DNA from: Pelomonas sp. Root405
Lineage (GTDB): Bacteria; Pseudomonadota; Gammaproteobacteria; Burkholderiales; Burkholderiaceae_C
NCBI RefSeq assembly: GCF_001425165.1
Contig: NZ_LMDU01000012.1
Coordinates: forward strand, 325,036-389,035
DNA length: 64,000 bases
Direction of reading: 5' to 3'
Shown: one piece after another, positions 7,021 through 28,295 of the stretch
Numbering within the stretch: position 1 is the first letter of the stretch
Layout of the letters: each line of letters starts with the position of its first letter
Translations under genes and position numbers: made by a program
The notes under the pieces: generated by a model
Database searches by the model: none
What the model saw: only the letters and a program-made list of their open reading frames with translations
What the model was told of the DNA's origin: nothing

Positions 7021-8526
7021 CTAGGCTTGCAGCAAGCCGTCCTGGAAGGCGACAAAGACGCCGTTGGTCCAACCGAAACCGTCCTGGGTTTCGTACTCGC
7101 CGCCGCCGCCGGCGCGGTCTTCGGCCACGTCGTATTTCTCCAGCAGCCGGCCGGTGGCCAGGTAGACGCGGTGCACGCTGGCGCACCAGCGCTCGGCGAT
7201 GTCGCGGGCCAGCGAGGCGTGGCCGTATCGAGCCAGGCCTTGCGCCGCCATCCATTGCAGGGGCGCCCAGCCGTTGGGGGCGTCCCATTGCTGGCCCGTG
7301 GCCAGCGCCGTGGTCAGCAGGCCGTTGGCGCCCATCAGATGGCGCCGCACCTGCTCGGCCATTGCGTCGGCCTGGGGCGGCGTGGCAATGCCGAGGTAGA
7401 GGGGTACCAGAGCGGCGGCCGTCAGCGGGCGCGGGTCGGTGGCGTGGCGCCAGTTCAGGTCGGCCAGGTGGCCGCTTTCATCGCCATCCTGGGCGCGCCA
7501 GAAGCGCGTTTGCAGCAGCTGCCGGCGTCTGGCGGTGCGCGCTTCGAAGGCCTGAGCGGTGGCGGGGTCGCCGCTGCGCGCGGCCCCCAGCGCGATGGCG
7601 GCCTCCAGGCCGGCCAGCAGCGCATTCAGGTCCACCGGCGCAAGGGACGTGGTTTCGATGCTGGCGATGTCCGCAGGGTCGGCGCACCAGCGGCCGGAGA
7701 AGTCCCAGCCGCTTTCGGCCGCGGCGCGCAGGTCGCGCCAGACGTGGGCATGCGGCCGGCCGCTGGCCTCGGCCGTCTCGACGTCCTCGCGCCAGCTCTC
7801 CTCGCGCGGGCTGTCGCGGTCGTCCCAGTAACGGTTGAGCAGCGCGCCGTCCGCGGTGCGCAGCACACGGCGATGAGCCTGGCCCGGCGCCAGCTCGTCC
7901 TCGCCGTCCATCCAGAAGGCGTGCTCGGCCTTGAGCGCCGGCAGGTACTGCGCAAAGCCGGCTGCCGGGTCGTCGGCGTGCAGCAGTTCGACCATCTTGA
8001 AGCAGAAGGGCGGCTGCGAGCGGCTCAGCATGTAGCTGCGGCTGCTGTTGGGGATGAAGCCGTAGGTGGCGATCAGGTGGGCGAAGTTGGCCAGCATGGC
8101 CTCGGCCAGCTCGCGTCGGCCATCGGCCATGAGGCCGAGCATCGTGAAATAGCTGTCCCAGTAGTAGAGCTCGCGAAAGCGGCCGCCTGGCACGACATAG
8201 GGCTGTGGCAGGGCGAGCAGGCTGTCACCTTCGACGGGGTGACGGTGCTCGCGCACCAGCAGCGGCCACAGCGCGCGGATGTGATCGCGAATGCCCAAGC
8301 GCGGCCCGGCGGGCGCACCGTGGCCGGGCAGCTCGAAGTGGGCGTGCACGAAGTCGCGCAGCGAGAAGCCGGGTCGAGAGCGCTCGGCGTCGAACCGGGC
8401 ACGTATCGCGGCGGGTGCAGAGCGTGGCAAGGCATCGACGAAGCTCTTGCCGTCGCCGCAGACGCCGCCCATCTGCACGGCGATGAAGAGCTCGCCGTAG
8501 AGCTCGTGGGGGGTCGGGTCAGACAT
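7021..8526 (-). CDS. treF: Trehalase, GH37, cytoplasmic type
   Basis: A 501-residue glycoside hydrolase family 37 trehalase, which hydrolyses alpha,alpha-trehalose to two glucose. Both family signatures are present: PGGRFRELYYWDSY at residues 113-126 and QWDAPNGWAP near residue 413. The Gly-rich stretch before EYETQDGFGWTNG near the C-terminus is also typical. No signal peptide is visible, so it should act in the cytosol on imported trehalose (treF-like rather than treA-like). The start overlaps the end of the upstream MFS gene by eight bases. With that permease and the TonB receptor further upstream it forms a plausible trehalose import and cleavage locus. Confidence 0.92.
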   Translation of the reverse strand: MSDPTPHELYGELFIAVQMGGVCGDGKSFVDALPRSAPAAIRARFDAERSRPGFSLRDFVHAHFELPGHGAPAGPRLGIRDHIRALWPLLVREHRHPVEGDSLLALPQPYVVPGGRFRELYYWDSYFTMLGLMADGRRELAEAMLANFAHLIATYGFIPNSSRSYMLSRSQPPFCFKMVELLHADDPAAGFAQYLPALKAEHAFWMDGEDELAPGQAHRRVLRTADGALLNRYWDDRDSPREESWREDVETAEASGRPHAHVWRDLRAAAESGWDFSGRWCADPADIASIETTSLAPVDLNALLAGLEAAIALGAARSGDPATAQAFEARTARRRQLLQTRFWRAQDGDESGHLADLNWRHATDPRPLTAAALVPLYLGIATPPQADAMAEQVRRHLMGANGLLTTALATGQQWDAPNGWAPLQWMAAQGLARYGHASLARDIAERWCASVHRVYLATGRLLEKYDVAEDRAGGGGEYETQDGFGWTNGVFVAFQDGLLQA

Positions 8527-21933: not shown

Positions 21934-22266
21934 CTACACCGCCGCCATCTGGCGGCAAGCCTCGGCGCACCGCGCGCAGGCTTGCGCGCAGGCCTGGCAA
22001 TGGTCGTGCTGGTGCTTGCCGCATTCTTCGCCGCAAGCTTCGCAAAGCAGCACACACAGGTTGCAGATGCGCTTGGCGAACTCGCTGCCGCGGGCCAGGG
22101 CGGCGGCGGCCAGCCGGCAGTAGGCGGCGCAGTCGATGTCCAGCGCGATGCAGCGCGCCATCGGTTTGACGTCGGTCTCCTGCAGGCAGGCGGTGGCGCA
22201 GTGGTCGCAGGCGGCGGCGCAGGCGTTGCAGGCTTCGATGCAGGCCTGATCGAGTTGCTTGGACAT
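21934..22266 (-). CDS. Four-helix-bundle copper-binding protein (Csp/DUF326-like)
   Basis: A 110-residue protein with 19 cysteines, mostly in CxxC, CxxxC and CxxCxxxC spacing along four helices (ACIEACNACAAACDHC at the start, CQACAQACARCAEAC near the end). This is the pattern of the Csp copper-storage proteins, which bind many Cu(I) ions inside the bundle. No signal peptide is present, so it should be cytosolic (Csp3-like). The start at 22266 follows an AAGGAG. It lies 63 bases downstream of the hybrid sensor kinase on the same strand and may be co-transcribed with it. Confidence 0.82.
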   Translation of the reverse strand: MSKQLDQACIEACNACAAACDHCATACLQETDVKPMARCIALDIDCAAYCRLAAAALARGSEFAKRICNLCVLLCEACGEECGKHQHDHCQACAQACARCAEACRQMAAV

Positions 22267-22329
22267 GGCGGTCTCCTTGGTCGAGAGGGGAGACCAGCGC
22301 GGCAATCGCCGCGCCTGCCAGCGCGTCGG

Positions 22330-25111
<2,782 letters not shown>

Positions 25112-25131
<20 letters not shown>

Positions 25132-27106
25132 TGCGTGTGTGCGTGCCGTCGCAAAAGGGTTTGGTCTGGCTGCCGCCGCAGCGGCACAGCCGCGCCTGCG
25201 TGACGCGGCAGACCATGCGCCCGGTGCCGCTCAGCACTTCGAGTTGGCCGCGGACCTGCAGTGGGCCATTGGGTTCGGGCTCGATGGCGACGGCGCCGTC
25301 GCGCACGGCCGGCATGTCGGTGGAAAAACCGAGCAGGCCGGTTGCGGGCTCGCCGGTGGCGGAGAACTGGATGTCATGGTGGCTGCCGTCGCAGAAGGGT
25401 TTGTTCTTGCTGGCGCCGCAGCGGCACAGCGTGGCACGCATGCCGATGGCCTGGCCGCGCAGGGTCAGCGCGCCGCGGATGGCATAGGGGCCCGACTCGC
25501 GCACCGACAGGAGGTTGACCGGCGGCGGCGCCTCATCCGCCTCGCCGTCCTTGCGGCGGTACTGGATGGCGCCCGACGGGCAGGCGTGGGCGATTTCGAC
25601 CAGCCGCTCGACCGGCATCGCATCCGGGTGCAACCAGGGGCCCTGCACATTGGCGAGGAAGACTTTGGGCGCACCCGTCACGCAAAAGCGCGCGTGGATG
25701 CAGCGCCGGGCCTCGAAGGTCAGCGCCAGCTTGTCGCCCTGCACGACCTCCATGCCGTCAATGGTCTCGGTGAGCGGTGCCGGTGCTGGAGCGGGCGGGG
25801 GCGGGGGCGGGGGCGCGGCCACGGCAGGGGCTGGCGCGGCAGCCACTGCGTCCAGGTCCAGCCCGCGGTCGGCTCGCTCACGCAGCGCCTGCAGCTGGCG
25901 TGCGGCGCGCTCGGTGCGCTCGGCGTTCAACGCGGCATGCAGCCCGGCAGCCGCGTCGGCCAGCTCGGCCAGGCGCTCGACGACGAAGCGGCGCGCGGCG
26001 GCACCCGGCGGCATGGCCGCGGCGTCGCGCAGCGCCGTGAAGCTGACGCCGGCGTTGCAGCCCGGGTGGGTCGGCCCGGCCGGCAGGCGCGCCGCCTGCT
26101 CGGCCAGCGGCGTGAAGGCGCGCATCAGGCCCAGCGCCAGGTCGATGTGCAGGCTTTTCTCGGCCGAGGGGCCGGGCAGCAGATAGCTTTGTGCCAGCAG
26201 TCGCAGCATCAGGCCGTAGCTGGCATTGGCGACGTCCACGGTCGCAGCGGCCACCTCGTTCTCCAGCCAGACCCGGCCTTCGGGCCGCGGCGGCCGGCGC
26301 AGCACCGGGTTGGTCGCCGCCGGCCAGGCGGGCGCGAAGCCGGCGTTGGCGTTGCGCAGCGCGGCCAGCTCGGTGCGGATGGCGGCAAAGCGGTGGTAGT
26401 GGGACGTGTCGCTGTCGCTTTGCGCGCCCTCGCCCTGACGCACGATGGCGTCGAAGGCGGCCAGCGCCGTCTTGCTGCACAGCACATGGCGGGCGCCGCC
26501 GAGGTTGAGCTCGTCCGGCCCGAGCTGCAGCCAACGGTTGCCGCAGAAGGCCTCGGCCTCGCCATGCGCATCGACAAAGGCGCGCAGGTCGGCGCTCAGC
26601 GTGGCGTAGAAGTGGCCGACCGTGTCGTAGTCGCGCGCCATCGGCGTGACCCGCGGCACGCTGGTGCCACGCTTGAAGAGGCGCTCGGCGGCAAAGCCGT
26701 CGCCGTCCTGCTCGGCGCTGCCGTCGGGCCGCTCCAGGTAAATGAAGTGCTGCAGCGTCGCGTCGTTGAAGGGCGCCAGCTTGACGACCACGCGCGCCGG
26801 CAGGTTGCCGGGGTCGAGCGGAAAGTTGCCGCGGCCGATGCGCGGCGCGCCGCCCAGCGCCGCCGTGATGTTCCAGACCGCCACGAGGTGGCCCATCTCC
26901 TCCACGGCCACGGCGACGATCTCGCGCCGCCAGCGCTCGACGGCGTCGGCCTCGGCGGAGCCCAGGCCCTCGGCCTCGCCCTGCCTGAGGCTGAAGGCCG
27001 CATAGAGATAGGTGCACATCAGGTTGTGCTCCAGCTCGGCGGCCTCGTAGAGGCTGTGCAGCAGTTGTTCTCGGCTCGGTGGCGCGGCCTGGGCAGGGGT
27101 CGTCAT
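25112..27106 (-). CDS. Three-module iron protein: VioB-like ferritin fold, Fer4_19 and two CDGSH domains
   Basis: A 664-residue protein. Residues 10 to about 250 resemble the ferritin-like domain (PF12902) found in VioB/RebD-type proteins, with candidate metal ligands E24, E26, H27 and E70-x2-H73. A Pro/Ala-rich linker follows near 440-465. Next is a divergent 4Fe-4S domain of the Fer4_19 (Mjr) type with RRCIHARFC and HACPSGAIQY. Two CDGSH iron-sulfur domains end the protein (LCRCGASKNKPFCDGSHH and LCRCGGSQTKPFCDGTHT). No signal peptide is seen, so it should be cytosolic. The reaction is unknown; a redox or iron-handling role is inferred from the domains. The next gene, a sensor kinase, overlaps its end by 20 bases. 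Confidence 0.85.
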
Positions 27107-27188: not shown

Positions 27189-28259
27189 TCAGGCGCGGTG
27201 AAGGCGGGGCAGCCGGGCCAGCGGGTCCCAGCGCGCGGCCGGCACCTCGACCCAGCGGTGGAACGGCAAGGCCAGCCAGTTCGCCAGGGCCCAGGTGACC
27301 ACGAACATCAGCAAGCCGAGCTGCGGCGTGGCGACGTCGGCATTCGCCAGCAACGCATTCGTCAGCAGCAGCACCGGAAAGTGCAGCAGGAAGACGGCAT
27401 AGGACGGCGTGGCCCAGGCGGCGAGCGCCGGTGCCCAGGCCGCGGGGAGGGCCGGCCGGCCGGCTGCGCGGCGGCCATCGGCCCAGGCCAGCCACAGCGC
27501 CGTCAGCGCGGCCAGCGCGAGGCGGTCGCGCCACTCCAGAGTCAACGCGGCGATCAGGGCCACGGCCAGCAGGGCCAGGCCGGCGCGGCGATGGCGCCAC
27601 AGGCCCAGCCAGTGCACCAGCGCGCCCAGGCCATAGGCCGCAAAGAAGTACGGCGCCCAGTCGTCGAGCGCCGGGTCGAGGTTGAAGGCAAAGGCCGAGG
27701 CGAGCGTGAAGGCAGCGACTGCCAACGGCCCGGCGAGGCCGCCGCCCGGCAGACCGCGTGCCAGCCACAGCAGGCCGGTGAGCAAGGCGAATAGCTGCAG
27801 GTCGATGGCCACGTACCAGGCGCCTACCGTCAGCGCCTCGAAGCCGAGCACATCGTGCAGCAGCAGCGCATGCGCCAGCAGCTGTGCGGCGCTGATGCTG
27901 GCAGGCAGCAGCTCGGGCAGGGATGAGGCGATCAGGCCGCAGGCAAACAGCGTCAGCGCCAGTGCGGCCAGAAAGGGCAGGACCAGGCGCAGATAGCGCC
28001 GCCACAGCAGCGCCGGCACGCCGGCTTTCAAGCTGCCGCCGCGCGGCGACAGGGCGCGTGCGCTGAGGTAGCCGCCGGCGACAAGAAAGATCTGCACCGC
28101 CATGCGACCGTAGTCGTGCATCAGGCCCGCCAGCAGCGGCAGGGCGTCGTGCGCGGCCTGCGCGATGGGGCCGTAGCTGACGAGATGGTGCAGCACGATG
28201 ACCTGAGCGGCGAAGGCCTTCAGGGCGTCGATGTGCGGCAGGCGGGATGGCGTGGACAT
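27189..28259 (-). CDS. Acyltransferase-3 family membrane protein
   Basis: A 356-residue integral membrane protein with about ten transmembrane segments. The N-terminal block (PHIDALKAFAAQVIVLHHLV) and MAVQIFLVAGGYLSAR match acyltransferase family 3 (OatA/WecH/ExoZ-like), which O-acylates sugars or peptidoglycan from the membrane. The specific acceptor is unknown. ATG at 28259 chosen over an in-frame ATG eight codons upstream, because that one would lie in the preceding terminator hairpin. Confidence 0.85.
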   Translation of the reverse strand: MSTPSRLPHIDALKAFAAQVIVLHHLVSYGPIAQAAHDALPLLAGLMHDYGRMAVQIFLVAGGYLSARALSPRGGSLKAGVPALLWRRYLRLVLPFLAALALTLFACGLIASSLPELLPASISAAQLLAHALLLHDVLGFEALTVGAWYVAIDLQLFALLTGLLWLARGLPGGGLAGPLAVAAFTLASAFAFNLDPALDDWAPYFFAAYGLGALVHWLGLWRHRRAGLALLAVALIAALTLEWRDRLALAALTALWLAWADGRRAAGRPALPAAWAPALAAWATPSYAVFLLHFPVLLLTNALLANADVATPQLGLLMFVVTWALANWLALPFHRWVEVPAARWDPLARLPRLHRA

Positions 28260-28263
28260 GGGG

Positions 28264-28295
28264 CAAAAAGAACGGGCCTGCACGTGGCAGGCCCG
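28264..28295 (-). terminator. Intrinsic terminator for the membrane protein gene at 28349
   Basis: A perfect 9-bp stem (CGGGCCTGC against GCAGGCCCG, five-base loop) followed on the minus strand by TTCTTTTTG. It lies between the stop of the upstream membrane protein and the start of the acyltransferase. Confidence 0.75.

Follow-up and report, generated by a model that had tools for sequence, protein, structure and literature searches.

A ferritin-like protein with its own type 7 CDGSH module in Pelomonas sp. Root405: a candidate iron-sulfur-fed peroxide or oxygen reductase

The window analyzed here is a stretch of 64,000 nucleotides from Pelomonas sp. Root405 (contig NZ_LMDU01000012.1, positions 325,036 to 389,035). 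On its minus strand, an open reading frame with an ATG start (27106..25112) encodes a protein of 664 amino acid residues that joins a PF12902 ferritin-like domain to a Fer4_19 domain and two CDGSH domains. Our preferred reading, tentative at a probability of about 0.38, is that of a cytoplasmic oxidoreductase whose ferritin-like site is fed by iron-sulfur (Fe-S) centers and acts on H2O2 or O2 much as rubrerythrin does. Electrons would pass in cis from the type 7 CDGSH module, composed of Fer4_19 and two [2Fe-2S] CDGSH domains, along the flexible, Pro-rich linker to a metal site of carboxylates and histidines within the first ferritin-like bundle (E26, E70, H73, E226, H236 and perhaps E125), and this site would reduce H2O2 or O2. 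We infer iron as the metal of the site, the flow of electrons towards it, peroxide or O2 as the substrate and the location in the cytoplasm.

The domain content and order (ferritin-like, Fer4_19, two CDGSH) proposed in an earlier sequence-only reading of this DNA were recovered by Pfam, all above cut-off. PF12902 membership is supported by an E-value of 6.3e-38 (131.3 bits, curated cut-off 22.3), and zf-CDGSH matched in two stretches (2.7e-28); the domain E-values exclude a chance match. The Pro-rich linker of that reading was found as well, with Pro or Ala at 22 of the 25 residues between 421 and 445. PF12902 does not cover the whole ferritin-like part: the structure model shows a second four-helix bundle at about residues 279-420. 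For the ferritin-like half, the list of best fold matches consisted of ferritins, all aligned on residues 279-426, and the ferritin part, used by itself as the query against PDB sequences, gave no match.

That metal ligands are visible in each module holds for the Fe-S domains. The residues C469, C475, C509 and H471 of Fer4_19 and C561/C563/C572/H576 of the first CDGSH domain were invariant across 44 aligned sequences, and C641/C643/C652/H656 of the second CDGSH domain were kept in 33 of 40 aligned rows. The remaining seven are CDC rows, in which one CDGSH domain lies on the opposite side of Fer4_19. In the ferritin-like domain the claim has to be corrected: E24, named as a ligand, is kept in only 4 of 16 PF12902 proteins without Fe-S domains (H27 in 6), and E26 is conserved instead. 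The two other candidates, E70 and H73, are each present in all 16, as are E26, E125 and H236, and E226 is present in 15. The alignment comprised these 16 non-fused and 14 fused PF12902 rows, one of the latter (locus L043) being gapped at E226 and H236. The set E26, E70-x-x-H73, E226 and H236 is common to fused and non-fused members and in this respect, too, the window protein belongs to PF12902; the crystal structure 3hl1 likewise has the helix-A Glu, ExxH and QGEG motifs (the alignment shown stops before H236). Because this set is conserved in non-fused members, the first bundle likely holds a coherent metal site, in a pattern that is neither the one first proposed nor that of canonical ferritins.

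Fer4_19 is the same domain as DUF1271. Lin et al. 2011 (PMC3174974) place proteins that combine DUF1271 with CDGSH domains in type 7 and divide them into the subtypes DC, DCC and CDC. By its DCC ending, the window protein is of type 7, subtype DCC; the CDC ending occurs in seven fusion proteins from Eremiobacterota. In a tree of 54 modules, 44 DCC rows, fused and stand-alone, fell on one side of a branch supported at 100/99 and ten CDC rows on the other, with the window module among the DCC rows; only three of the CDC rows were stand-alone. Without locus L049, the 23 DCC-fused rows formed one group (97/90) and the seven CDC-fused rows another (100/98), and a tree holding all fused Fe-S modules together was rejected with a p-AU of 0.025, accompanied by a long-branch warning. 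The module of L049 begins at the edge of its contig and differs little from that of the fused L043; counted as stand-alone, it gives a p-AU of 5.5e-5. In the tree of the ferritin domains, a single clade of fused rows was not rejected (p-AU 0.557) and stood apart from 13 of the 14 other PF12902 rows; L043 was left out of this tree, and L106 is a long branch of unsure placement. Taken together, the two trees therefore indicate one ferritin-like subfamily bearing two differently built Fe-S modules, and the two parts seem to have been paired, or paired anew, on two occasions. Since the parts were joined twice or the module was swapped, their coupling appears to matter. The presence of two differently built modules on one ferritin-like subfamily also supports internal electron transfer from the Fe-S centers to the metal site, which had been proposed before and which we regard as plausible on these sequence comparisons.

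The fusion recurs in many genomes, so that an assembly artefact, which its absence from all relatives would have suggested, was rejected. A protein search, capped at 8000 candidates, returned at least 4136 relatives at E ≤ 0.001, and among the 120 matches listed all carry the three Pfam domains. In the own genus, 16 of 20 genomes match (own included), in one with the gene split over two contigs. In a scan of genome contigs, the best 80 matches represented 78 loci. Both parts share one frame in 47 of them, some of which are truncated by the end of a contig; 27 have only the Fe-S module, L049 among them as a probably cut fused gene, and four have the ferritin part only (L031, L040, L041 and L044). 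Among the hosts are beta-, gamma- and alphaproteobacteria, Myxococcota, Leptospiraceae, Eremiobacterota and a single Planktophila bin. PF12902 of any kind is sparse: it was found in 9 of 369 genomes sampled from the class and in 15 of 299 sampled from the phylum, own genome included in both. The nearly identical Fe-S modules of L049 and L043 stem from bins labelled Janthinobacterium and Planktophila, probably by way of a misbinned contig.

The non-fused PF12902 genes have other partners. In 10 of the 18 non-fused loci examined, the PF12902 gene adjoins an oxidase gene, i.e. one on the same strand that overlaps or lies within 100 nt: a LodA-like gene, then a LodB-like gene (L169, L182, L184 and L187), a GMC oxidoreductase (L178, L179, L180, L181 and L185) or an amine oxidase (L189). 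Pfam supports nine of the ten and L179 was assigned by homology to L178; the neighbours at L169 are called "-like" because they reach 364 against 600 for NCBIfam LodA and 248 against 400 for LodB. No oxidase was recognized beside the gene at L167, L168, L186, L188 and L190, and the count excludes L183, where an amine-oxidase-like gene lies on the opposite strand at 85 nt, and L191/L192, where a BBE flavoprotein is one gene away. The 18 loci, 16 from the oxidase search plus L167 and L168, were drawn from 31 non-fused places found, leaving out G114 (L080), G233 (L086), G032 (L087), G381 (L106), G885:C57 (L148/L149), G469 (L177), G426, G445, G555 and the partial hits L144-L147. The count of 15/16 from the oxidase search is partly circular, its queries coming from the same loci. 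In L142 and L143, the polypeptide that carries PF12902 also has a LodA_C stretch just under the Pfam cut-off, and PF12902 neighbours are reported for fungal lodA genes too (PMC4417212). In contrast, only 2 of 66 fused loci have an oxidase of the searched types within 4 kb, in neither case adjacent (the 66 include near-duplicates from the own genus and some short flanks), and none of 27 stand-alone Fe-S modules has one. The difference suggests an exchange of partners, an oxidase in trans for an Fe-S module in cis. At L183 (1752-5621), a protein with FIST, GAF and adenylate/guanylate cyclase domains is encoded directly upstream of the non-fused PF12902 gene.

Extended to the whole family, the preferred reading would make PF12902 the redox second step of H2O2-forming oxidases. 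Acting in trans, it would take peroxide, or a reactive product, from the adjoining LodA-like, GMC or amine oxidases; in one subfamily a cis Fe-S module, differing in domain order, would have taken the place of the oxidase partner, perhaps twice, giving a self-wired peroxide/O2 reductase with four metal centers that in two lineages may also report the redox state to a hybrid kinase encoded in the operon. In this full extent the scheme is unlikely.

The oxidase neighbours of the non-fused kin also agree with an enzyme in the manner of VioB or RebD, in which the metal domain would act on an imine or other small organic product, oxidizing or coupling it, and the Fe-S domains would recycle electrons. 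The window protein had been called VioB-like, and distant kinship was indeed found: residues 211-393 match VioB positions 796-975, a stretch that reaches into the second bundle. Its score against NCBIfam VioB (TIGR04492), however, is 58.5 bits compared to an equivalog cut-off of 1250, and identity as VioB was rejected. The VioB profile spans 1003 positions, whereas the window protein has 664 residues with PF12902 at its N-terminus, from residue 20, and Fe-S domains in addition, so that the N-terminal half of the profile probably lacks a counterpart. Given also the near absence of the searched oxidases around fused genes, we consider such an enzyme rather doubtful. VioB, RebD and StaD, synthases of the chromopyrrolic-acid type, are described as heme proteins that act after a tryptophan oxidase. 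At L186 (3859-6956), the gene directly upstream of PF12902 encodes a 671-aa protein that matches VioB weakly (26.7 bits, profile 515-603), and at L081/L188 a single 732-aa PF12902 protein holds a stretch related to it (304 bits); because of this shared stretch, VioB-like proteins may occur split and fused.

The fusion gene is followed by a hybrid histidine kinase gene, whose first ATG overlaps its end by 20 nt. H-NOX or NosP proteins encoded beside hybrid kinases offer an analogy, by which the protein could serve a two-component system as its sensor subunit for redox state, O2, NO or iron. Every own-genus locus with room (18 rows, duplicates among them) has a histidine kinase gene that overlaps the fusion gene or comes directly after it. 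The projected kinase start falls within the fusion gene, 20 nt before its end, in 13 of 17 congeneric rows (again with some duplicates), the alignment of the other four stopping short of the kinase start. A different hybrid kinase directly follows the gene, with a second kinase upstream, in the Rhodobacterales loci L028 and L033 and in L150 and L151 of family f223, and a chemoreceptor gene follows it in L039. The overlap, however, is weak evidence for the kinase start because the Asn-Gly-Phe codons of the fusion gene in which it falls are conserved. Three congeners that lack the fusion gene (G372, G380 and G383) retain the orthologous kinase and the acyltransferase in synteny, which weakens the case for a dedicated kinase partner, and L152 (family f223) has the fusion gene without a kinase; co-occurrence is hence not obligate. 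Of the 42 other fused loci, 7 have signalling genes within 4 kb, compared with 3 of 27 stand-alone Fe-S controls, no clear excess. A dedicated sensor role is therefore possible but not favoured, and we judge it distinctly unlikely.

By mechanical gene calls, no conserved neighbourhood was recognized beyond the own genus and the Rhodobacterales/f223 loci among the families listed (25 of 104 each). Stand-alone Fer4_19-CDGSH-CDGSH genes have patchy shared neighbours only, for instance a gene in Rhodobacterales that we take from its sequence to be folD-like, and no PF12902 match was found in their loci, 28 of which have flanks of only about 1.5 kb. L028, L033, L150 and L151 share a divergent island upstream of the fused gene. 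It encodes a histidine kinase, a receiver and two further proteins, one of 575-602 aa with G[VI]TGHRD close to its N-terminus and one of 335-350 aa; in L033, the former has no Pfam match and the latter carries pentapeptide repeats and an ion-channel domain. After the kinase of the same fused locus (L033:13645-16834) stand genes for a LysR-type regulator and a KatG-type peroxidase. Downstream of the kinase in the window (21934-22305, minus strand), a Cys-rich four-helix protein weakly resembles the Csp copper storage proteins (TIGR04401, 32.6 bits versus a cut-off of 100).

Table 1 Features of the fusion gene and its flanks in the window
Feature	Position	Strand	Basis or remark
Ferritin-like / Fer4_19 / CDGSH / CDGSH fusion protein, 664 aa	25112..27106	minus	Whole open reading frame including stop
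PF12902 ferritin-like domain (first helical bundle), residues 20-244	26375..27049	minus	Pfam; ligand candidates E26, E70, H73, E125, E226, H236
Second ferritin-like four-helix bundle, residues about 279-420	25847..26272	minus	Structure model; no canonical ligand set
Pro/Ala-rich linker, residues 421-445	25772..25846	minus	Composition; pLDDT < 50 at 425-440
Fer4_19 domain, residues 456-519	25550..25741	minus	Pfam, 2.8e-15
First CDGSH domain, residues 539-576, CRCG...PFCDGSH	25379..25492	minus	Pfam
Second CDGSH domain, residues about 605-662, CRCG...PFCDGTH	25121..25294	minus	Pfam
Hybrid histidine kinase (PAS, HisKA, HATPase, receiver), downstream	22330..25131	minus	Associated gene; functional part only putative
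Acyltransferase-3 family gene, upstream	27189..28283	minus	Syntenic flank in genus loci compared

Several observations weigh against a peroxide or O2 reductase of the kind preferred here. Of the canonical diiron ferritin ligands only the helix-A Glu and the helix-B ExxH match, the helix-C Glu and the helix-D ExxH not being seen, and with E226 and H236 ten residues apart the site is not canonical. The cluster type of Fer4_19 is uncertain because its ligands are three Cys plus His. The neighbours of fused genes show no peroxide theme, apart from the one KatG-type gene near L033, and the catalase activity of VioB has been attributed to heme and not to a diiron site. As to the history of the fusion, the rejection of a single clade of fused Fe-S modules is only moderate, and the trees are explained equally well by two fusions or by a single fusion with a later swap of the module. 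The ferritin-like fold would also suit iron storage or cluster supply, with the ferritin-like domain storing iron and the CDGSH domains donating clusters; human CDGSH NEET proteins can pass electrons or whole clusters (PMC5859297). Two tandem bundles in one long chain would nevertheless be unlike a cage-forming ferritin, and the non-fused kin are encoded beside oxidases, and hence this function is very improbable.

Among known systems, no characterized member of the fusion family was found in open-licence papers, which agrees with the earlier statement that no characterized protein with this exact order was known to its author. The order itself is not rare, and associations of CDGSH with Fer4_19 and with Ferritin-like domains are already listed in PMC5859297. 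The main text of Lin et al. 2011 does not contain the word "ferritin" (PMC3174974); their type 7 proteins of the DCC and CDC subtypes comprise one or two CDGSH domains and DUF1271 in either order, whereas in the window protein such a module is the C-terminal part of a fusion. As far as the open-licence literature shows, the correction of the ligands, the two module histories and the contrast in oxidase partners are new. Caulobacter CC_0557 (PDB: 3hl1) is a ferritin-like protein of the PF12902 type with only 317 residues and without the Fe-S part; no function was found for it in the open-licence literature, and in one regulon table it stands with a catalase gene. Our comparison connects this orphan family, with its unexplained crystal structure, both with oxidase operons and with a distinct way of Fe-S wiring and, if the preferred reading is true, would provide a testable role for type 7 CDGSH proteins and for the ferritin-like domain of VioB and RebD. 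In rubrerythrin, a small iron center stands in cis next to a ferritin-like site. The window protein resembles it in layout and is not a member, because the canonical ligand set is not present: rubrerythrin combines rubredoxin with canonical diiron ligands in another ferritin-like subfamily, whereas here Fer4_19 and CDGSH domains take the place of rubredoxin and, if the reading holds, would constitute a non-rubredoxin route for feeding a ferritin-like site.
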